This document shows positions 9,251-21,773 of a DNA stretch of 61,458 bases, one piece after another. The stretch's first letter is position 1; the number at the start of each line of letters is the position of its first letter. The position numbers and the translations under genes are program-made. Under the pieces are notes generated by a model. It was given only the letters and a program-made list of their open reading frames with translations. It ran no database searches and was not told the origin of the DNA. This stretch comes from Prolixibacteraceae bacterium (GTDB lineage: Bacteria > Bacteroidota > Bacteroidia > Bacteroidales > Prolixibacteraceae): assembly GCA_019459525.1 (NCBI GenBank), contig JAIBEY010000078.1:1-61458 (forward strand), written 5' to 3'.

Positions 9251-10639
9251 ATGTTAAAATTTACCGACATAAAGCAAGTGTATTTCCTGGGTATTGGAGG
9301 AATTGGGATGAGCGCTCTGGCACGTTATTTTGCGAGTCAGGGCATTGCTGTTTCTGGTTACGACCGTACTGCAACCGAGTTAACAGCCCAGCTTGAAGCT
9401 GAAGGGATTGCTGTACATTACGACGATAATCCGTCGCTTTTGCCTGCCAGTCTGAATCTTTCCGATTCGCTTATTGTTTATACACCCGCTGTTCCGGCTA
9501 CACATCAGGAATTAAAAACACTGATTGCCCGTGGATTCCCCATTCATAAACGGGCAGAGGTTTTGGGCATTATTTGCAACAGCCGCCGGACGATTGCCGT
9601 TGCCGGAACTCATGGAAAAACGTCGGTTTCTACCATCACAGCGCACATCCTGAAAACTTCGGCAAAAGGGTGCTCTGCTTTTATGGGCGGAATTTCCAAA
9701 AATTACCAGACTAATCTGTTGCTCGATTCAACAGGTAGCGAATGGATTGTGGCTGAAGCCGACGAGTTTGACCGCTCATTTCTGCATCTCAAACCCGAGT
9801 TGGCAGTAATCACATCGATGGATGCTGATCATCTGGACATTTATGGCTCGCACGAAAAGGTGATCGAGAGTTTCCGTTTGTTTGCCGGAAATATCAAAGA
9901 AGGCGGTTCGCTGGTCCTGAAAAAAGGGTTGCCCATTGAATCTGATCCTTCTTCAAAATACCAGTTGTATTCGTATTCGATTAAAGAACCGGCTGATTTT
10001 TACGCGGATAACATCGAACTTAAAAATGGGTATTACCAGTTTGATCTGGTAACTCCTGAACTCAGGATTGAGAAATTGGTGCTGAATTATCCGGGCTTGC
10101 TGAATGTTGAAAACTCAGTAGCCGCATCGGCACTGGCGCTTCTGGCCGGAGTTACACCCGAGGATGTTCGGCAGGCGCTGGCTACTTATGCCGGAGTTAA
10201 AAGACGCTTTGATGTGCACCTGAAAAACGATTGTTTTGTGCTGATCGATGATTATGCCCATCATCCGGAAGAGCTGAGGGCAACCATTCAATCGGTTCGC
10301 GATATTTATAAAGATCAGACACTAACTGGCGTATTCCAGCCGCATCTTTACAGCCGGACAAAGGATTTTGCCGATGGTTTTGCCAGCAGCCTTGATTTAT
10401 TGGACGAAATCGTATTGCTCGATATTTATCCGGCGCGCGAACTGCCGATGGAGGGGGTGACTGCCGATTTGATTTTTAAACAGATAAAAAATAAGAATAA
10501 GAGATTATGTGCCAAGTCTGATTTAGTTGGACTTGCCGAAACATTTAAGCCAGGAATTGTAATTATGATGGGTGCGGGCGATATCGATACACTGGTTGAG
10601 CCTGTAAAAGAGCAATTATTGAAGCATGAGGATTGTTAA
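9251..10639 (+). CDS. murC: UDP-N-acetylmuramate:L-alanine ligase MurC
   Basis: First Mur ligase, which joins L-alanine to UDP-MurNAc in the cytoplasm. From ATG 9251 the protein starts MLKFTDIKQVYFLGIGGIGM, which puts the nucleotide loop GIGGIGMSAL at the usual distance from the N-terminus. A longer frame opens at 9209, but its extra 14 residues overlap the palindromic repeat, so I prefer 9251. The P-loop GTHGKTS has K123 and T124, and the central motif DADHLDIYG is present. Length is 462 residues. The 3' end overlaps ftsQ by 14 bp. Confidence 0.95.
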   Translation: MLKFTDIKQVYFLGIGGIGMSALARYFASQGIAVSGYDRTATELTAQLEAEGIAVHYDDNPSLLPASLNLSDSLIVYTPAVPATHQELKTLIARGFPIHKRAEVLGIICNSRRTIAVAGTHGKTSVSTITAHILKTSAKGCSAFMGGISKNYQTNLLLDSTGSEWIVAEADEFDRSFLHLKPELAVITSMDADHLDIYGSHEKVIESFRLFAGNIKEGGSLVLKKGLPIESDPSSKYQLYSYSIKEPADFYADNIELKNGYYQFDLVTPELRIEKLVLNYPGLLNVENSVAASALALLAGVTPEDVRQALATYAGVKRRFDVHLKNDCFVLIDDYAHHPEELRATIQSVRDIYKDQTLTGVFQPHLYSRTKDFADGFASSLDLLDEIVLLDIYPARELPMEGVTADLIFKQIKNKNKRLCAKSDLVGLAETFKPGIVIMMGAGDIDTLVEPVKEQLLKHEDC

Positions 10640-11381
10640 AAAAATAGTGGTCATAGTAGCTTGGTTGTGTCTGGTGGGTGTCATCGGATTCTCGGTCTAT
10701 TACGTTTACATGAAATGGGCCGCTGTTCGTTGCCAGGCTGTTGTGGTAAATATCAACCCGAGTTCGCCTCGTTTTATGGACGAAGCGGAGATTGCCGGGA
10801 TGATCGAAAAGTCGGGAGAGCCCATTATTGGACACCGGCTTGCCGCCATTAACATCAATAAGCTGGAGGCCCGGCTGAGTTCATTTACGACTTTAAATAA
10901 TGTGGAAATATTCAGGAAGGTTGATGCCAAAGGAATCTCATTTACCGGGAAACTGATTATCAGTGTCGATCAACGCACCCCGGTTATCCGGATGAAGAAT
11001 TCAACCGACGATTATTATCTCGACGGTGAAGGCGTAAAAATTCCGACATCGCCCAAATATGTGGAACGGATTTTAATCGCCACGGGAACAATTCCTGATG
11101 ACCAGGTAAAAAAGATGCTTCTGAAAATGGCGGATTTTATCAATAAAGATGATTTCTGGAGGGCTCAGATCGAACAGGTTTTTATTCAGGAAAACGGGGA
11201 ATTACTTTTGGTTCCCCAGGTCGGTGGTTATCTGATTGAATTTGGAACGCCGGAAGAGTACGAATTGAAATTGAGAAATTTGAAAGCTGTTTACCAACAG
11301 GGATTTAAAAATATGGGATGGAACAGGTATAAAACCATCAGTGTAAAATATCGGAATCAGGTTGTTTGTACAAAAAAGTAG
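10626..11381 (+). CDS. ftsQ: Cell division protein FtsQ/DivIB
   Basis: Bitopic division protein linking early and late divisome parts. It has a short cytoplasmic tail, one membrane segment (about residues 5-27), then a periplasmic region with a POTRA-like part (VVVNINPSSPRFMDEAEI...) and a beta domain. FtsQ is poorly conserved in sequence, so the call leans on topology, length (251) and its place between murC and ftsA. It overlaps the murC end by 14 bp and stops 3 bp before ftsA. Confidence 0.88.
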   Translation: MRIVKKIVVIVAWLCLVGVIGFSVYYVYMKWAAVRCQAVVVNINPSSPRFMDEAEIAGMIEKSGEPIIGHRLAAININKLEARLSSFTTLNNVEIFRKVDAKGISFTGKLIISVDQRTPVIRMKNSTDDYYLDGEGVKIPTSPKYVERILIATGTIPDDQVKKMLLKMADFINKDDFWRAQIEQVFIQENGELLLVPQVGGYLIEFGTPEEYELKLRNLKAVYQQGFKNMGWNRYKTISVKYRNQVVCTKK

Positions 11382-11384
11382 ATT

Positions 11385-12671
11385 ATGGACAAGAATGAAA
11401 AAATTTTTGCAGCAGTTGACATAGGTTCTACCAAAATTGTAGCCCTTGCCGGAAAGAAAAATGAAGAAGGAAAAATCCAGATCATTGGACTTGGGCATAG
11501 TCCGTCGCGGGGAGTTAACCGCGGTGTGGTGCAGAATGTTGAAGAAGCTTTTGCTGCCATAAGCGATGCTGTTGTTCAGGCTGAAAGTAATGGCAATTGT
11601 ATTGTGGAATACGTGTATGTGAACATTTCCGGACAGCAGCTGACTACCTTGACTTCCAAACAACATCGGATGCTGGGGCGCGACCGCTGTGTGACCGAAT
11701 CTGATGTAAACCATATGCTGGAAAGTGCCCGTCAGATAAACCTGGCTGAAGATATGGCTATTTATCACATTAATCCAGAGACATATACCATTGATGGAGA
11801 ACCTATTTTGGCCAATCCGGTTGGTTCTCTGGGCGAAAAGATTGAAGCGAATTTTAAAATTCATGTAGCTCCTGATTCGTACCAGCGGAACATTTCCAAA
11901 TGCTTCGAAGGTGGTTCGATAAAAGTACGCAAGGCCATTCTCGACCCAATTGCCTCTTCTGAAGTTGTTTTGCTTGATGACGAAAAAGAGGCCGGGGTAG
12001 CTTTGGTTGATATTGGCGGAGGGACAACGAAAATATCCATCTTTTACGAGGGCGTTTTATGCTTTACCTCCATGGTTCCTTTTGGCGGAAATGTAATTAC
12101 GCGCGACATCAAGGAAGGTTGTTCGATTACAGCCAAGCAAGCCGAATCGCTGAAAGTTCAGTTCGGTTATGCCATTGCTGATTTTGTTCAGGAAGGGAAA
12201 ATGGTGACCATCCCGAATGCAGGTGGCTGGGAACCCAAACACATATCGGTAAAAAGTTTATCGCATATCATTCAGGCCCGGATGGAAGAAATTATTGCCG
12301 GATTCTTTGTGCAAATCCGGAAATCGGGTTACGCCGATAAACTGGGTGCCGGAATTGTAATAACCGGGGGTACTTCGTTGTTGCGCAATTTGCCTCAGTT
12401 AATAAAGTTTCATACCGGTTTCGACGTGAAAATCGGGAATCCAAATTTGAATAGTTTTGCCGACCGTAGGGAAGTCAATGATCCACGGTTTGCCACAGCG
12501 CTGGGGTTATTAAAAATGGCAGCTACCGCAGAAGGCGAATTTGGGAAGAAGGTGAAGGTTAAAAAACCGAAATCGAATGAGCCAGGGCTACTTACTGTGG
12601 CCAAGCAAAAATTAGTTCAGGGAATGATCAGTTTTTTTGAAGAAAATACAACCGATGCAGAAATGTCCTAA
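11385..12671 (+). CDS. ftsA: Cell division actin homolog FtsA
   Basis: Actin-fold ATPase that tethers FtsZ filaments to the membrane. Visible are the phosphate-1 loop near FAAVDIGSTKIVALAG (about residues 9-24), the phosphate-2 loop VALVDIGGGTTKISIF (about 205-220) and the adenosine motif GIVITGGTSLLRNL. The SHS2 (1C) domain lies between the first two. The C-terminus (KQKLVQGMISFFEE) could form the amphipathic membrane-targeting helix. It is 24 bp from the first ftsZ. Confidence 0.95.
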   Translation: MDKNEKIFAAVDIGSTKIVALAGKKNEEGKIQIIGLGHSPSRGVNRGVVQNVEEAFAAISDAVVQAESNGNCIVEYVYVNISGQQLTTLTSKQHRMLGRDRCVTESDVNHMLESARQINLAEDMAIYHINPETYTIDGEPILANPVGSLGEKIEANFKIHVAPDSYQRNISKCFEGGSIKVRKAILDPIASSEVVLLDDEKEAGVALVDIGGGTTKISIFYEGVLCFTSMVPFGGNVITRDIKEGCSITAKQAESLKVQFGYAIADFVQEGKMVTIPNAGGWEPKHISVKSLSHIIQARMEEIIAGFFVQIRKSGYADKLGAGIVITGGTSLLRNLPQLIKFHTGFDVKIGNPNLNSFADRREVNDPRFATALGLLKMAATAEGEFGKKVKVKKPKSNEPGLLTVAKQKLVQGMISFFEENTTDAEMS

Positions 12672-12695: not shown

Positions 12696-13979
12696 ATGAT
12701 CGACGAATTACTTAACTTCGGATTAGAGCACACAAATTCTTCCATAATCAAAGTGATTGGGGTTGGAGGAGGAGGTTGCAATGCGGTGAAAAACATGTTT
12801 GAGGAAGGTATTGAGGGTGTCAATTTCATGGTTTGCAATACCGATGCGCAAGCCATGCAAAACAATCCGGTACCTATCCGGATTCAGCTTGGTGTAACCT
12901 TAACAGGAGGTCGTGGGGCCGGAAATATGCCTGGGCAAGGTGAACAAGCAGCCATTGAAAATCTGGATGACATTCGCAGCGTTCTCGAACCCACAACCAA
13001 AATGGTGTTTATCACTGCCGGAATGGGTGGCGGCACGGGAACTGGTGCAGCGCCGGTTATTGCCCGGTTGGCCCGCGAAATGGACATTCTCACCATTGCT
13101 GTGGTTACCATCCCATCACAATCCGAAGGAAAGCGCAGATTCGATCAGGCGCTTGAGGGGGTTGAGAAACTAAAGGAACATGTGGACAGTATGCTGGTTA
13201 TCAGCAACGAAAAATTACATAAAATCTACGGAAACCTTCCGGCATCAAAGGCTTTTAAGAAAGCCGACAACATTATTACCACTGCAGTAAAAGGGGTTGC
13301 CGAAATTATCACACTTCACGGAAATATAAATATCGACTTTGCCGACGTTAGTACGGTAATGGCTGGCAGTAAGGTTTTCATAATGGGAACCGGGTACGCC
13401 GAAGGGCCCGACAGGGCAATGAGTGCCGTTACGCAGGCACTCGAATCGCCATTGCTCGATAGTAGCAGCATTCGTGGAACAAAAGATATCCTTCTGAATA
13501 TTATTTCAGGAACCGATGAAATTACGATGGGCGAAATTGGTGAGATTATCGATTTCCTTCAGGATGAAGCCGGGCAGGATGCCACTATTATCTGGGGAAA
13601 CGGGTGCGATCCTAAACTTGGGAACCAGATAAGTGTTACCATTATTGCCACCGGGTTCGATGTAAATCCGAACCGCATTTTCCAGAATCCTGGCGATATG
13701 GTTGAACTGGAACCTGAAAATACTGGCTTTGAAATTAATCTGGATGACGATGAATCCTTCTTTTCGAAAGAGTTTGCAGCGCCGGAGCCGGAAAAGAAAC
13801 CGGCCATGGAAACCCAGATGCGCCAAGGTTCTTCTGGTACACAGAAAAAGGCAGGGAAGGTAAAACCTGAAAAACCAAAACCCGATAATGCAACTGTTGA
13901 CAGTTGGTTTACCAGGCAGTTCACCAAATTGTTCGATGATAAAGACTCGACCATACCTGAAGAGAATAGTAACAATTGA
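12696..13979 (+). CDS. ftsZ: FtsZ paralog 1, divergent C-terminal tail
   Basis: Tubulin-like GTPase. The GTP-binding loops are intact: GVGGGGCNAV near the N-terminus, the signature GGGTGTGAAP (about residues 110-119), and the T7 synergy loop N212-I-D214-F-A-D217 with both catalytic aspartates, so polymerisation and hydrolysis look possible. The tail (about 325-427) is Lys/Pro-rich and lacks the IPAYxR-type peptide that usually binds FtsA. It carries VDSWFTRQFTKLFDD instead, which could form an amphipathic helix. The next gene, 30 bp away, is a second FtsZ that does have the usual peptide. The start at 12696 gives MIDELLNFG, matching the paralog's N-terminal extension. Confidence 0.95.
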   Translation: MIDELLNFGLEHTNSSIIKVIGVGGGGCNAVKNMFEEGIEGVNFMVCNTDAQAMQNNPVPIRIQLGVTLTGGRGAGNMPGQGEQAAIENLDDIRSVLEPTTKMVFITAGMGGGTGTGAAPVIARLAREMDILTIAVVTIPSQSEGKRRFDQALEGVEKLKEHVDSMLVISNEKLHKIYGNLPASKAFKKADNIITTAVKGVAEIITLHGNINIDFADVSTVMAGSKVFIMGTGYAEGPDRAMSAVTQALESPLLDSSSIRGTKDILLNIISGTDEITMGEIGEIIDFLQDEAGQDATIIWGNGCDPKLGNQISVTIIATGFDVNPNRIFQNPGDMVELEPENTGFEINLDDDESFFSKEFAAPEPEKKPAMETQMRQGSSGTQKKAGKVKPEKPKPDNATVDSWFTRQFTKLFDDKDSTIPEENSNN

Positions 13980-14009
13980 AGAAATTAATAACACGAAAAA
14001 TATACGATC

Positions 14010-15422
14010 ATGTCAAACGAAATTATGAATTTTGATTTAACCGTTAATACGGGTTCAATCATTAAGGTAATAGGAGTAGGTGGTGGCGGAGGTAATGCTG
14101 TGAATCACATGTATTATCAGGGAATTCGTGATGTGGATTTTATGGTTTGCAACACAGATGCTCAGGCGTTGATAAATAGTCCGGTTCCTTTTAAGGTACA
14201 ATTAGGATCGTCGTTAACCGAAGGACGCGGTGCCGGTAATAAACCTGAAACGGGTCGCGATTCGGCCATCGAGAATATTGAAGATGTAAAAAAAGTACTG
14301 AAGAACAATACGAAAATGGTATTTATAACCGCCGGGATGGGTGGTGGTACAGGAACAGGTGCTGCGCCTGTAATTGCTGCCGCAGCCCGCGAACTTGGCA
14401 TTCTAACCGTTGGTATTGTTACCATTCCCTTTCGAAACGAAGGTCGCCGCCGTATAAAACAAGCCGTTGAAGGTATTGCCGCCATGGAATCGCATGTTGA
14501 TTCCCTGTTGGTAATCAACAATGAACGGATTCGCGAAATGTACGGCGATTCGAAAATCTCGGATGCCTTTGCCAAGGCTGATAATATTTTGACCACAGCC
14601 GCTAAGGGAATTGCCGAAATCATAACAGTTCCGGGCTATATCAATGTTGACTTTGCCGATGTTGAAACCGTGATGCGCAACAGTGGAGTGGCGCTGATGG
14701 GAACTGGTATCGCCTCCGGAGTTAACCGTGCGGTAATTGCAGTGGAAGAGGCTTTAAATTCGCCTTTGCTGAACAACAACGACATCATGGGCGCTCAAAA
14801 TATTTTACTGAATATTACTTCCGGAATTGAAGAAATTACCATGGACGAAATTGGTGAGATAACCGATTATGTGCAGGAAAAAGCAGGTAACTCGGCCGAT
14901 CTGATCTGGGGAAATGGCGTTGATGAAGCTCTGGGCGATCGCATTTCGGTGACCATTATTGCAACCGGTTTTAGTACCAGCAGCATTCCTGAAATGGTTA
15001 TCAACAAAAGCCAGGAGAAAACTTATCATACGCTTCAGGATGATGCAACTGTAGGAATGCCATTCGCCAAATCAGAAGTTAAATCTTCGGTTGAGAATGA
15101 ATTATACGGATCAAAGAATGTTAAACAAAAGACATTCGAATTCGAGATCAACCCCGGAGGATACGATGAGTTTGAAGAGTTGTATGGCACATCTAAAAAA
15201 AATGTAACCCAGGAAGCTGAACCGGTAGATTATACCCAAACCACCGAAGAAACGGTTAATGAACTGGAGAATATTCCGGCCTATCGGCGGAAGAACTCTA
15301 ATTTCTTCGGATTTAAAAAAAAAGTAGATGAGAAATTTTCCCGCTTTTCTATTTCTCCGGATGAAAATAATAATGTAATTTTACGGGACAATAATTCTTA
15401 TTTACACGATAACGTTGACTAA
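14010..15422 (+). CDS. ftsZ: FtsZ paralog 2, canonical C-terminal peptide
   Basis: Second FtsZ of the tandem pair. It has GVGGGGGNAVNHMY, the signature GGGTGTGAAP and the T7 loop N212-V-D214-F-A-D217, collinear with paralog 1 through the GTPase core. It also keeps the T5-region motif TIPFRNEG; paralog 1 has TIPSQSEG. A linker of about 100 residues leads to ENIPAYRRKNSNFFGF, the kind of peptide that recruits FtsA and other partners, followed by a further extension of about 45 residues. Length 470. This copy looks the more typical of Bacteroidota FtsZ. It is 9 bp upstream of a YqeY-like gene. Confidence 0.96.
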   Translation: MSNEIMNFDLTVNTGSIIKVIGVGGGGGNAVNHMYYQGIRDVDFMVCNTDAQALINSPVPFKVQLGSSLTEGRGAGNKPETGRDSAIENIEDVKKVLKNNTKMVFITAGMGGGTGTGAAPVIAAAARELGILTVGIVTIPFRNEGRRRIKQAVEGIAAMESHVDSLLVINNERIREMYGDSKISDAFAKADNILTTAAKGIAEIITVPGYINVDFADVETVMRNSGVALMGTGIASGVNRAVIAVEEALNSPLLNNNDIMGAQNILLNITSGIEEITMDEIGEITDYVQEKAGNSADLIWGNGVDEALGDRISVTIIATGFSTSSIPEMVINKSQEKTYHTLQDDATVGMPFAKSEVKSSVENELYGSKNVKQKTFEFEINPGGYDEFEELYGTSKKNVTQEAEPVDYTQTTEETVNELENIPAYRRKNSNFFGFKKKVDEKFSRFSISPDENNNVILRDNNSYLHDNVD

Positions 15423-15431
15423 TTTTAAGCT

Positions 15432-15881
15432 ATGGGTTTATTTGAACAGATAAGTAATGATATTTTAGTCGCGATGAAAGCACGCGAGAAAGAAAAACTC
15501 GAAGCTTTACGTGGAATTAAGAAAGTAATGATTGAAGCCAAATCAGCCGAAGGAGCAACAGGCGAATTAAGCGATCAGGAATGCCTGAAAATTATATCGA
15601 AATTAGCCAAGCAAGGAGCTGATTCTGCATCCATTTACAAGGAACAGGGACGTAATGATTTGTACGAGCAGGAGATTTTTCAGGTGAAAGTTTTTGAAGC
15701 TTATCTTCCTGCAAAAATGTCGGATGCTGATTTAACTAAAGCAGTTCAGGAAATTATTACAGAAGTTGGCGCAACGAGCATCAAAGAAATGGGTAAAGTA
15801 ATGGGTATCGCTTCCAAAAAGCTGGCAGGACTGGCCGAAGGGAAAGATATCTCGGATAAAGTGAAAGCGCTATTAAGCTAA
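15432..15881 (+). CDS. GatB/YqeY domain protein
   Basis: A 149-residue all-helical protein of the YqeY family, related to the C-terminal tRNA-contacting domain of GatB. Typical features are the N-terminal MGLFEQISNDILVAMKAREK, the repeated KxxLEALRxIKK pattern and the EAYLPAKMSD motif. The family's function is not settled; a link to amidotransferases or tRNA is inferred from the domain only. It is the last gene of the division cluster, 9 bp after ftsZ and followed by a terminator. Confidence 0.9.
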   Translation: MGLFEQISNDILVAMKAREKEKLEALRGIKKVMIEAKSAEGATGELSDQECLKIISKLAKQGADSASIYKEQGRNDLYEQEIFQVKVFEAYLPAKMSDADLTKAVQEIITEVGATSIKEMGKVMGIASKKLAGLAEGKDISDKVKALLS

Positions 15882-18095: not shown

Positions 18096-21000
18096 ATGAA
18101 GGAATTCAGGAAATACATTTTATCGATACTTTCCGTCCTGTTTTTTATTCTGGCGGTTATTCTGGAACATCAAAGCCTGAATAAACATCCGGAAATAAAA
18201 ATGATTCAGACTTTCCGGAAAACCTTGCTGAATCAGGAATCAAAACTGGCCGACCACCTGAATGCGGCTGAAATTAAATTAAAAGACAGCATCGTTTCTG
18301 ATAATTACGTTTCTGCATTCGCTGCATTAAATCCTTTGTTCGAAGATGAAGGCTTGGGGTTTGTTATTTACAAGGGCGACCGGATGGTTTACTGGTCGAG
18401 TAACCAGTTTACTTTCCCGAATGTCCAGAATAAGTTTTCGAGCCAAAACAGGCTTTTAATTTTGCCCAATGGTATTTTCACGGCGCAGAAAAGGATTGTT
18501 GGAGAACATGTCCTGATTGGGCTGGTGCACATCAAATCAACTTATTCGTATGAAAATCAGTTTCTGAAGAATTCCTATGTTCGACCGTTTCGTCTTCCGG
18601 CAGATTTTAACATTGTTTCAACCAGAGATAAGAATGCTCAGGAAATACACGATATAACGAATCAGTATCTGTTCTCTATTTTACCTTCCGGGGCAAAATT
18701 TGTTAAAGAATCACAACTCTATTTCCCGGCTTTTCTCTATTTGCTCGGGTTTATTTTCCTGCTCTTTTCGTTATACCACAGCATACGCAAATACAAGGAA
18801 GAAAATTTTGTTTTTAAAATGGTAATTGTATTGCTGATCCTGTTTGTAATTTACTGGATCCACATCATTCTTGGAATACCCTTAATCCTGAACGAGTTTA
18901 AGATCTTTAGCGCCCAATATTATGCGGTTTCCACCTGGCTTCCTTCTCTGGGCGATTTTTTCCTGATAGCGTTGTTGTTCTTTTTCTGGAGCCTGGTGTT
19001 TGTGCGCGAATTTCCGCAAGAAAACCGATTGAAGCACCGAATGGTGTTAGCTGCATTTGCGTTTACCGGTTTGCTCTACCAGTTGGTTGGTTTTATGGTG
19101 GTTAATTTAATACGCAACAGTAACATAACCTATAAAATAACCCGGATTACAGATATTGATCAGTTTAGCATCGGAAGCTATCTGGCTATTGCCATGCTGC
19201 TGTTTTCTGTTTTTCTTATTCACCTGAAAATTATCGAACGGACAGGGCCTCTGATTCGGAAAGATATTTTTCTGAAAATCAATGGTATCGCGATTCCTGT
19301 TTTGATTGTTTTAAGCATCTTCTTTCCATCGGGAGAATGGTATCTGCTGATTCTTTTTTTTGCAGTTAATTTGCTTCAGAGCCAGGTGAAGAAATTGCAC
19401 ATTTCCTTGTATTCATTGTCGTATTCCATCCTTTTTATTTCGCTTTTTTCGATCATTAGTTTATTGGTGGTTTACCACACCATTAAAAAACGTGATTTTG
19501 AGGTCCAGAAGCTGTATGCCATTACGCTCAGTTCAGAACAAGATCCTGTTGCAGAGGTTTTTCTGGCCCGGATACAGAGTCAGTTTAATACCGACTCGGT
19601 TATCCCATCGTTGCTAAACACACCTTATACCGACCTCGAAAATTACCTCACACGCACTTATTTCAGTGGATATTTCAGAAAATACGATATCCAATACACT
19701 TTGTGTACCGAAATAGACAGTTTGCTTATTCAGCCTGAGAATTCATGGGAACCCTGTTTTCCATACTTTGAACAAATGATCAGGCATTCCGGGATACCAG
19801 TGCCTGGCAGCAACTTCTATTTTATGAACCACATGAACGGACGGGTTTCGTACTTCGGAAGACTTCATTATCCGTTGGTTGCAGATGTGAATGGCATTTC
19901 CATCTTTATAGAACTGACTTCGAAACGGGTATCCGAAGGAATCGGGTTTCCTGAATTGCTGATGGACAAGTCGCTGGTAAAGCCATTCAGGTATAAGTAT
20001 CTTTCTTATGCCAAGTATTTTGAAGAAGAACTGGTTAACCGGTCGGGAGAATATGCTTACAATTATTACCTGCAAGCCTATGATTTGCAGGATTCAATTT
20101 CGGAGTTTCAGGTTTTAAAATTGGATGGATACAGTCATCTGATCTACAAATCGGATGAGAATACTCATATTGTGGTGAGTAACCGGGCTCTCACTTTTTC
20201 TGATTACCTGATTTCTTTTCCTTACATTTTTGTGTTCTATTTTGTGTTTGTTATTGCCATTTCAATAGCCGGAAACTCCAGTTTCAGAAAACTAATTATT
20301 CCGCAAGACTTACGTTTCCGTATTCAGGTTTCGATAATCTCCGTTGTACTTGGGTCGCTTCTGTTTGTGGCCTCTGGAACCATTTATTACAACATTCAGG
20401 AATATCGGGCACGGCATCAATACGACCTTCAGGAAAAAATGAAATCCATTTCAGAAGAAATAAAAAACAGGCTTCAACCGGTAAATTCCATTACACCCGA
20501 ATTGCAGCAGTGGCTTTTCAGGGAGCTGTATAAATTGTCGAATATTTTCAGAACCGACATTAATATTTACGACATTAATGGGGAGTTACTGGCAACTTCG
20601 CGTCCCGAGATTTTTGCCAAAGGTGTTATATCGGAGCAAATGAATGCTGAGGCTTTTTATGAATTGTCGGAACGATACGAACTCAATTATTTTCAGCCAG
20701 AACGAATCGGGTCATTGTCTTATCTTTCGGCATACGAGCCCATCATCAATAACAGCGGCGATTATCTGGGGTATCTCAATCTTCCGTACTTTACGCGTGA
20801 AGATGATCTGAAGCAAAGCATTTCAACTTTTATTGTGGCTTTCATTAATTTATACCTGATTTTATTTCTGGCCAGTGTAATTGTTGCTGTGGTGCTGTCG
20901 GACAAAATTACCCAGCCGCTGAGCCTGATCCGCGAAAAACTGAGGGGCATTCAACTCGGTAAAAAGAGTGAACAAATCAACTATCAGGCAAAGGATGAAA

Positions 21001-21773
21001 TTGGCGCTTTGGTAAGCGAGTACAACCACAAAGTTGATGAACTTGCCGAAAGTGCTGAATTGCTGGCCCGTTCGGAACGCGAGTCGGCATGGAGGGAAAT
21101 GGCCAAACAGGTAGCCCATGAGATCAAAAATCCGTTGACTCCGATGAAGCTCAATATCCAGTACTTACAACGGGCCAAAGAAGAAGGAAACGAACACTAC
21201 GACGACTTTTTCGACCGGGTTACCAAAAACCTGATAGAGCAAATTGATACGCTTTCGGGAATAGCAACCGAGTTTTCGAATTTCGCGCAAATACCCAAAG
21301 CAAAAAACGAGATGTTTAACCTGGTGGAAGTCCTCCGGAATATCTGTTCGTTGTTTGAGCCCAACCAGAACCTGTATTTTACCATGGATTTTGACGAACA
21401 GAATGAAATCAGGATGTTTGCAGATAAAGAACAGCTTTCGAGGGTTTTTCTCAACCTCATAAAAAATAGTATTCAGGCCATTCCGGCCGAGCAAAAGGGT
21501 GAGATCCGTATTGCTATTCAACAGCATGATGCCTTTGCAACGATTGCTATCAGCGACAATGGTACCGGAATCAGCCAGGAAGCTCAGGATAACCTGTTTC
21601 AGCCTAATTTTACCACTAAAACCAGCGGTATGGGGCTCGGATTATCGATAGTGAAGAATATTGTCGATAATTTTGGTGGAAAAATATGGTACACCACAGA
21701 GCTCAATGAAGGAACCACTTTTTATATTGAAGTGCCTGTATTTAAAACGGAACCGGTGACCAAAAAAGGTTAG
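18096..21773 (+). CDS. Very large multi-pass sensor histidine kinase (NtrY-like), orphan
   Basis: A 1225-residue membrane kinase. A first membrane segment at about 7-25 precedes an extracytoplasmic region. A block of several membrane helices (about 205-460) follows, then a second large extracytoplasmic region (about 465-700), two more membrane segments (about 705-770), a further sensor region, a last segment near 910-935, and a HAMP-like linker. The transmitter has H-box QVAHEIKNPLTPMK with H1008, N-box LSRVFLNLIKNSIQAIP, and G-boxes ISDNGTGI and GMGLGLSIVK. This core resembles NtrY-type kinases. No response regulator is adjacent, so its partner is elsewhere. The signal cannot be read from sequence. 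Confidence 0.88.
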   Translation: MKEFRKYILSILSVLFFILAVILEHQSLNKHPEIKMIQTFRKTLLNQESKLADHLNAAEIKLKDSIVSDNYVSAFAALNPLFEDEGLGFVIYKGDRMVYWSSNQFTFPNVQNKFSSQNRLLILPNGIFTAQKRIVGEHVLIGLVHIKSTYSYENQFLKNSYVRPFRLPADFNIVSTRDKNAQEIHDITNQYLFSILPSGAKFVKESQLYFPAFLYLLGFIFLLFSLYHSIRKYKEENFVFKMVIVLLILFVIYWIHIILGIPLILNEFKIFSAQYYAVSTWLPSLGDFFLIALLFFFWSLVFVREFPQENRLKHRMVLAAFAFTGLLYQLVGFMVVNLIRNSNITYKITRITDIDQFSIGSYLAIAMLLFSVFLIHLKIIERTGPLIRKDIFLKINGIAIPVLIVLSIFFPSGEWYLLILFFAVNLLQSQVKKLHISLYSLSYSILFISLFSIISLLVVYHTIKKRDFEVQKLYAITLSSEQDPVAEVFLARIQSQFNTDSVIPSLLNTPYTDLENYLTRTYFSGYFRKYDIQYTLCTEIDSLLIQPENSWEPCFPYFEQMIRHSGIPVPGSNFYFMNHMNGRVSYFGRLHYPLVADVNGISIFIELTSKRVSEGIGFPELLMDKSLVKPFRYKYLSYAKYFEEELVNRSGEYAYNYYLQAYDLQDSISEFQVLKLDGYSHLIYKSDENTHIVVSNRALTFSDYLISFPYIFVFYFVFVIAISIAGNSSFRKLIIPQDLRFRIQVSIISVVLGSLLFVASGTIYYNIQEYRARHQYDLQEKMKSISEEIKNRLQPVNSITPELQQWLFRELYKLSNIFRTDINIYDINGELLATSRPEIFAKGVISEQMNAEAFYELSERYELNYFQPERIGSLSYLSAYEPIINNSGDYLGYLNLPYFTREDDLKQSISTFIVAFINLYLILFLASVIVAVVLSDKITQPLSLIREKLRGIQLGKKSEQINYQAKDEIGALVSEYNHKVDELAESAELLARSERESAWREMAKQVAHEIKNPLTPMKLNIQYLQRAKEEGNEHYDDFFDRVTKNLIEQIDTLSGIATEFSNFAQIPKAKNEMFNLVEVLRNICSLFEPNQNLYFTMDFDEQNEIRMFADKEQLSRVFLNLIKNSIQAIPAEQKGEIRIAIQQHDAFATIAISDNGTGISQEAQDNLFQPNFTTKTSGMGLGLSIVKNIVDNFGGKIWYTTELNEGTTFYIEVPVFKTEPVTKKG

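Follow-up and report, generated by a model that had tools for sequence, protein, structure and literature searches.

Why would a bacterium encode FtsZ twice in succession within its division and cell wall (dcw) gene cluster? The question is raised by a stretch of 61,458 nucleotides from a Prolixibacteraceae bacterium (GenBank assembly GCA_019459525.1, contig JAIBEY010000078.1, positions 1 to 61,458 of the forward strand), hereafter the window, in which two ftsZ genes, here called ftsZ1 (copy 1) and ftsZ2 (copy 2), follow one another. The two products share a catalytic core and differ at the C-terminus, where FtsZ2 bears a peptide of the FtsA-binding type and FtsZ1 a tail that resembles that of FtsA itself, which suggests that they may reach the membrane by separate routes.

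Two tandem FtsZ proteins with different tails

A preliminary description of the window had reported two full-length ftsZ genes 30 bp apart, and the open reading frames (ORFs) together with their Pfam and NCBIfam matches bear this out (table 1). Over the core, both FtsZ1 and FtsZ2 exceed the curated cut-off of the NCBIfam FtsZ equivalog TIGR00065 (295.2 bits), and both match Pfam PF00091 and PF12327. Their cores are 62% identical, and a PF00091 search of the draft genome (116 contigs) found no FtsZ beyond the tandem pair. The GGGTGTG signature and the NxDxxD motif of the T7 loop are hallmarks of active FtsZ. As the same description had stated, GGGTGTG at residue 111 and N212, D214 and D217 occupy identical positions in the two proteins. 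Residue counts were made over 55 distinct FtsZ1 and 48 FtsZ2 sequences from the window's family (named Prolixibacteraceae in most record titles, sampled with 100 genomes), 38 single FtsZs, and 11 upstream and 8 last copies from the arrays of other families; GGGTGTG, N212, D214 and D217 are invariant in 55/55 FtsZ1 and 48/48 FtsZ2. When the window's FtsZ1 core is compared with those of 12 relatives, nonsynonymous divergence (dN) is 0.03-0.14 and synonymous divergence (dS) 1.27-2.95, the latter so near saturation that only the sign of dN versus dS is safe; that sign indicates that FtsZ1 is under purifying selection. The FtsZ1 linker changes fast in the same comparison (dN 0.34-0.75). On the catalytic residues and the purifying selection on FtsZ1, the prediction of two active-looking GTPases with different tails stands.

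The difference lies at the C-terminus. In the window, FtsZ1 carries the stretch VDSWFTRQFTKLFDD at residues 401-415, after a Lys/Pro-rich linker, and no IPAYxRR peptide; both the absence and the location of this candidate helix agree with what had been described. For FtsZ2, an IPAYRRKN-type peptide had been noted, which by analogy we take to be an FtsA binder. The peptide is present at residues 422-429 but is internal, 41 residues (15297-15419) following it and ending in LRDNNSYLHDNVD. A PAYxRR-type pattern occurs in every FtsZ2 (48/48), in every last copy from the arrays of other families (8/8) and in 29 of the 38 single FtsZs. The pattern appears in 1 of the 55 FtsZ1, the sole match (PVFESR) lying within a linker, and in 0/11 upstream copies of other families' arrays. 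The tandem arrays of six other families therefore show the same split, in which only the last copy has the peptide.

Family FtsZ1 tails have the consensus W-F-x-R-Q-F-x-x-F-F-D/E-D. A Trp lies within the last 40 residues in 54/54, and the pattern W[FL]xx[QKNEM][FL] fits 52 of these 54, the remaining two being off by one residue. In an alignment of 35 FtsZ1 sequences Trp404 is invariant (35/35), while F405, F409 and F413 stand at 90% or more; over 51 tails, position +3 is Arg or Lys in 50 and the commonest residue at +4 is Gln (36/51), these per-position counts, like the core identities and class-specific sites given below, grouping one family FtsZ1 (L127, genome G204) with the upstream copies of other families. 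The upstream copies of those families have the same kind of tail built from different residues: a basic linker, an aromatic or hydrophobic stretch and, mostly, an acidic end. At the C-terminus of FtsZ2 there is also a second conserved block, NNS[FY]LHDNVD, which many single and last copies of the order share; a loose form of it ends 22 of the 38 single FtsZs.

Likeness of the upstream tails to FtsA tails

In model bacteria the C-terminus of FtsA is a membrane-targeting helix. The FtsA tails of the order mostly consist of a Lys-rich stretch, a short hydrophobic or aromatic stretch and an acidic end, and a profile was trained on 35 of them, taken from single-FtsZ genomes only. Excluded from the tail tests were L107, whose FtsZ1 contains an assembly gap, L097, whose FtsZ2 is cut, and four loci that duplicate others. 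Upstream FtsZs reached a median of 7.9 bits (n=51), close to that of held-out FtsA tails (8.2, n=50). Medians were -0.4 for last FtsZs (n=48), -0.4 for single FtsZs (n=35), -1.1 for other dcw proteins (n=213) and -0.6 for shuffles (n=510). The profile separates upstream from last copies with an area under the receiver operating characteristic curve (AUC) of 0.956, and scores of at least 5 bits were obtained by 40/51 upstream, 1/48 last and 1/35 single copies. Family tails are not mutually independent in this comparison; averaged by lineage, scores ranged from 5.5 to 14.3 bits over seven groups, and the 11 upstream copies outside the family had a median of 8.5 bits. Within the window's own genome, where long ORFs were ranked, 272 in all, drawn from the window and from 20 further stretches, FtsZ1 came first (7.9) and FtsA second (7.1), with one further ORF above 5 bits (5.3). 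By this profile, the FtsZ1 tail resembles an FtsA tail.

Resemblance is not descent. For all 51 copies, comparing the upstream FtsZ tail with the FtsA tail of its own genome gives a score of 31.2, and with FtsA tails of different genomes 28.0 (own genome higher in 31/51); for the 11 copies outside the family the two values are 26.7 and 27.8. Because the same-genome excess vanishes outside the family, descent from an FtsA tail is not established, and recent local copying of the FtsA tail is unsupported.

Proposed split membrane attachment and its rivals

We consider it probable, though some way from assured, that the division ring contains two FtsZs with split membrane attachment, FtsZ1 through its own FtsA-type helix and FtsZ2 through FtsA. 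Both proteins would bind and hydrolyse GTP and polymerise. FtsZ2 would be held at the membrane by FtsA bound to its IPAYRRKN peptide. FtsZ1, having lost the peptide, would carry instead a linker rich in Lys and, after it, a short amphipathic helix that is rich in Trp and Phe and of the type that targets FtsA to the membrane; its filaments, or mixed filaments, would attach directly to the membrane and not compete for FtsA. The FtsA-type tail and a raised hydrophobic moment (medians 0.541 for upstream copies, 0.420 for last, 0.336 for single and 0.401 for shuffles) suit the earlier proposal that copy 1 reaches the membrane directly; membrane binding itself, FtsA binding by FtsZ2, co-assembly and slower dynamics are what we infer. 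The two routes are suggested by the membrane helix of FtsA in model bacteria and by the behaviour of chimeras. In the latter, FtsZ was fused to yellow fluorescent protein (YFP) and a membrane-targeting sequence (mts): the E. coli FtsA mts gave 6-fold more supported-membrane coverage than the MinD mts, and vortices moved at 23 nm/s with the former versus 35 nm/s with the latter (PMC7320174). By analogy with these chimeras strong direct attachment should slow treadmilling, and FtsZ1 would thus probably be the slow, anchored partner of a faster, FtsA-tethered FtsZ2.

Several observations weigh against split attachment. Eleven of the 51 upstream tails score below 5 bits on the FtsA-tail profile, one of them (L121) at -1.0, and the best shuffle, last copy and single copy reach 12.7, 7.8 and 6.4 bits, respectively. 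As a discriminator between upstream and last copies, the hydrophobic moment is only moderate (AUC 0.82), and its values for the window's own pair are close (0.54 in FtsZ1 versus 0.50 in FtsZ2). In the AlphaFold model of FtsZ1 the block confidence score (pLDDT, predicted local distance difference test) is about 39-49 beyond residue 330, and the tail has four helical residues (406-409), with pLDDT mostly below 50; the helix is therefore unconfirmed. Nor would a generic membrane helix need Trp, Arg/Lys, Gln and Phe to be as strictly conserved as they are here. Finally, the peptide-bearing last copies of family f23 (L074 and L079, genomes G022 and G136), which share one long branch in the careful tree described below, read GKGTGTG in place of GGGTGTG; in that family the peptide-bearing copy may be the weaker GTPase, and so the statement that both copies are active may fail outside Prolixibacteraceae.

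The strongest rival, which we nevertheless hold to be unlikely, reads the FtsZ1 tail as a docking peptide for a protein partner, either FtsA, at a different site, or a second divisome protein that binds FtsZ, the FtsA tail being alike because it meets the same partner. Conservation at the level of single residues (Trp404, the three Phe positions, and +3 and +4, with the counts given above) is what such docking predicts, and the AlphaFold model has no stable helix. However, in other families the upstream tails share the build but not the residues, as expected of a membrane helix, and the FtsA tail is such a helix in model bacteria.

A second alternative, to which we would give little credence, is that the main role of FtsZ1 is modulatory: it would co-polymerise with FtsZ2 and alter the dynamics or curvature of the latter, the tail being secondary. 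Fifteen core sites are fixed differently between FtsZ1 and FtsZ2 (e.g., S141/F141, N210/Y210, I213/V213, F228/A228). The clearest, residue 141, which from FtsZ structure presumably lies near the nucleotide site, is Ser in 49 and Ala in 6 of the 55 FtsZ1, and Phe in 48/48 FtsZ2, 36/38 single FtsZs and 11/11 upstream copies of other families. Arabidopsis FtsZ1 offers a precedent, as it counterbalances FtsZ2 filament stability in vitro (PMC8142252). Against this, the change at S141 is unshared by the other families' upstream copies, and the difference that recurs in the arrays of every family read lies in the tail. As for a redundant dosage copy, a pseudogene or a decaying relic under relaxed selection, the last an alternative held out from the start, FtsZ1 does evolve somewhat faster than FtsZ2 (mean core identity over 28 genomes 71% versus 76%), but purifying selection and catalytic residues conserved in 55/55 lead us to reject it as very improbable, as do the conserved tail and the presence of at least two FtsZs in nearly every family genome with a match.

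Split attachment would have a parallel in chloroplasts, whose pair differs in consisting of plastid proteins, with ARC6 as the adaptor and an FtsZ2 that keeps a conserved C-terminal peptide. There, Arabidopsis FtsZ1 is reported to bind membrane by its C-terminus (cited in PMC12583498), as we propose for FtsZ1 here. Another parallel is offered by the dual FtsZs of Odinarchaeota reported in 2025, one self-tethered by its own amphipathic helix and the other tethered by an adaptor bound to its C-terminal tail; these are archaeal, however, and belong to the archaeal FtsZ1/FtsZ2 clades, with an N-terminal helix and with SepF, not FtsA, as adaptor (PMC12583498). Split tethering by dual FtsZs is thus already known, and the bacterial pair with an FtsA-like tail is a variant on that theme. 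Direct membrane binding by a bacterial FtsZ, as proposed here, has been described for Mycoplasma, a member of another phylum, through the N- or C-terminus (Dutta 2025, cited in PMC12583498). Two ftsZ genes are also found in bacteria covered by a survey of how FtsZ evolved (PMC9871819); there the additional copies lie outside the dcw cluster, whereas here they are in tandem inside it. Among the matches listed from open-licence papers, we found neither a tandem FtsZ pair in Bacteroidota nor a bacterial lineage described with two dcw-encoded FtsZs dividing membrane attachment. The chimeras with the E. coli FtsA mts, like FtsZ1, join an FtsZ to an FtsA-type membrane tail, but they are artificial and were studied alone, whereas FtsZ1 occurs in nature, alongside a canonical FtsZ (PMC7320174). 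If attachment is indeed split, the pair would be the natural counterpart of the synthetic FtsZ-mts used for treadmilling studies. Its presence throughout the family and again in other families would also allow a direct test of why cells use the adaptor FtsA over self-tethering and what a second filament adds to the ring; Gaoshiqia sediminis A06, a named strain of the family, is a possible starting point.

Distribution, origin and genomic context

How widespread is the pair? An FtsZ match was found in 95 of the 100 family genomes, and 94 of those 95 have at least two; the sole genome with a single match, G197, has its locus cut by a contig end. The other five are draft assemblies with a rated completeness of 71-97% and may simply be missing contigs. 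Among the 56 genomes or records of the family that were read, all but G197 (55) have two ftsZ genes adjacent on one strand, so that chance or an assembly artefact is ruled out. The median intergenic gap is 25 bp over the pairs measured, and the order ftsZ-ftsZ-yqeY was read in 47 family genomes. Five genomes rated 95-97% complete have no PF00091 match at all (G236 and G199 in the family; G005, G016 and G020 in the order), perhaps through a missing dcw contig. Third, divergent FtsZ/tubulin-like matches above the Pfam cut-off lie away from the dcw cluster in three family genomes (G164:C150:378400-378885; G195:C2:189365-189808; G238:C458:36785-37024).

In the order, the FtsZ search covered 149 genomes, drawn from 119 families. 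More than one match was found in 19 genomes outside the family: eight, spanning six other families, have tandem dcw arrays of two or three ftsZ genes; in ten the additional matches are below cut-off or located elsewhere; and G084 is ambiguous owing to contig breaks. Three-gene arrays occur at L075, L076 and L080 (genomes G031, G069 and G145), their first copies forming one well-supported clade and their second copies another. In the phylum sample (296 genomes), 29 genomes outside the order have more than one match; 28 were placed, G516 being omitted for 13% contamination, and none of these 28 has neighbouring FtsZ matches. The preliminary view that a dcw-encoded pair is unusual in Bacteroidota therefore holds for the phylum sample but not for the family, where it is the rule, nor for the six further families of the order in which it recurs. 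In group f135 (e.g., G305, G320, G328, G446), 17 sampled genomes of two genera have an additional FtsZ-like match, either on a different contig or well removed from the first.

An FtsZ tree had been suggested as the means of dating the duplication. We built a careful tree of the FtsZ core from 69 of 160 extracted proteins and a quick tree from 110 of the 160; L090, with a very long branch, was omitted from the careful tree and from both topology tests. Family FtsZ1 forms one clade (support 100/100 in the careful tree, 99 in the quick tree), and so does family FtsZ2 (99/95 and 93). Because each copy is a single well-supported clade, the branching pattern indicates that both predate the family's radiation, through a single duplication after which both copies were retained. 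The trees included no archaeal or plastid sequences; FtsZ1 and FtsZ2 average 60% identity inside one genome, which points to a duplication inside Bacteroidota. Forcing together all 28 upstream copies in the tree lowered the log-likelihood by 19.7 and was not rejected (p-AU, from the approximately unbiased test, 0.119), nor was a single clade of family FtsZ1 and FtsZ2 (p-AU 0.415). On a weakly supported quick tree of MurC and FtsA, at least four label changes are needed to account for the lineages with arrays.

In this context, we put forward as a speculation, and a rather improbable one, that self-anchoring FtsZs arose several times in the order and each time in the same way: in a tandem duplication, the breakpoint fused the ftsZ linker with the 3' terminus of ftsA, the gene upstream, leaving a ring with two filament populations on separate anchors. 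Such a breakpoint would in one step give a peptide-less upstream FtsZ with an FtsA tail, followed by an intact canonical FtsZ, and the arrangement expected from it matches the arrays read here.

In the window the pair lies in a dcw cluster on the + strand. Probable FtsQ, ftsA, ftsZ1, ftsZ2 and yqeY follow there on genes for a PASTA-type penicillin-binding protein, Mur ligases, MraY, FtsW, a MurG-type transferase and a third Mur ligase (table 1).

Table 1. Coordinates of the ftsZ pair, its motifs and its neighbours in the window
Feature	Position	Strand	Remarks
ftsQ (probable)	10626..11381	+	PF03799 just below cut-off (20.5 vs 21 bits); precedes ftsA
ftsA, 428 aa	11385..12671	+	PF14450, PF02491
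FtsA C-terminal tail, the type that the FtsZ1 tail resembles	12609..12668	+	7.1 bits, FtsA-tail profile
ftsZ1 (copy 1)	12696..13979	+	427 aa ORF; TIGR00065 359.4 bits
FtsZ1 GGGTGTG GTP-binding signature, residues 111-117	13026..13046	+	invariant in 55/55 distinct family FtsZ1
FtsZ1 Ser141, class-defining change from Phe in the PFxxEG stretch	13116..13118	+	
FtsZ1 T7 loop N212, D214, D217	13329..13346	+	55/55 family FtsZ1
FtsZ1 Lys/Pro-rich linker, residues 322-400	13659..13895	+	fast-evolving
FtsZ1 FtsA-like tail motif, residues 401-415, with invariant Trp404	13896..13940	+	
ftsZ1-ftsZ2 gap, stop to start	13980..14009	+	30 bp
ftsZ2 (copy 2), canonical copy	14010..15422	+	470 aa ORF; TIGR00065 362.2 bits
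FtsZ2 FtsA-binding-type peptide IPAYRRKN, residues 422-429	15273..15296	+	pattern in 48/48 FtsZ2
FtsZ2 extreme C-terminal block LRDNNSYLHDNVD	15381..15419	+	N462 and D470 invariant
yqeY, downstream neighbour	15432..15881	+	PF09424

Further along the window, positions 18096-21773 encode a histidine kinase of 1225 aa; its Pfam assignments are confined to the last quarter and comprise HisKA and HATPase-type domains alone.

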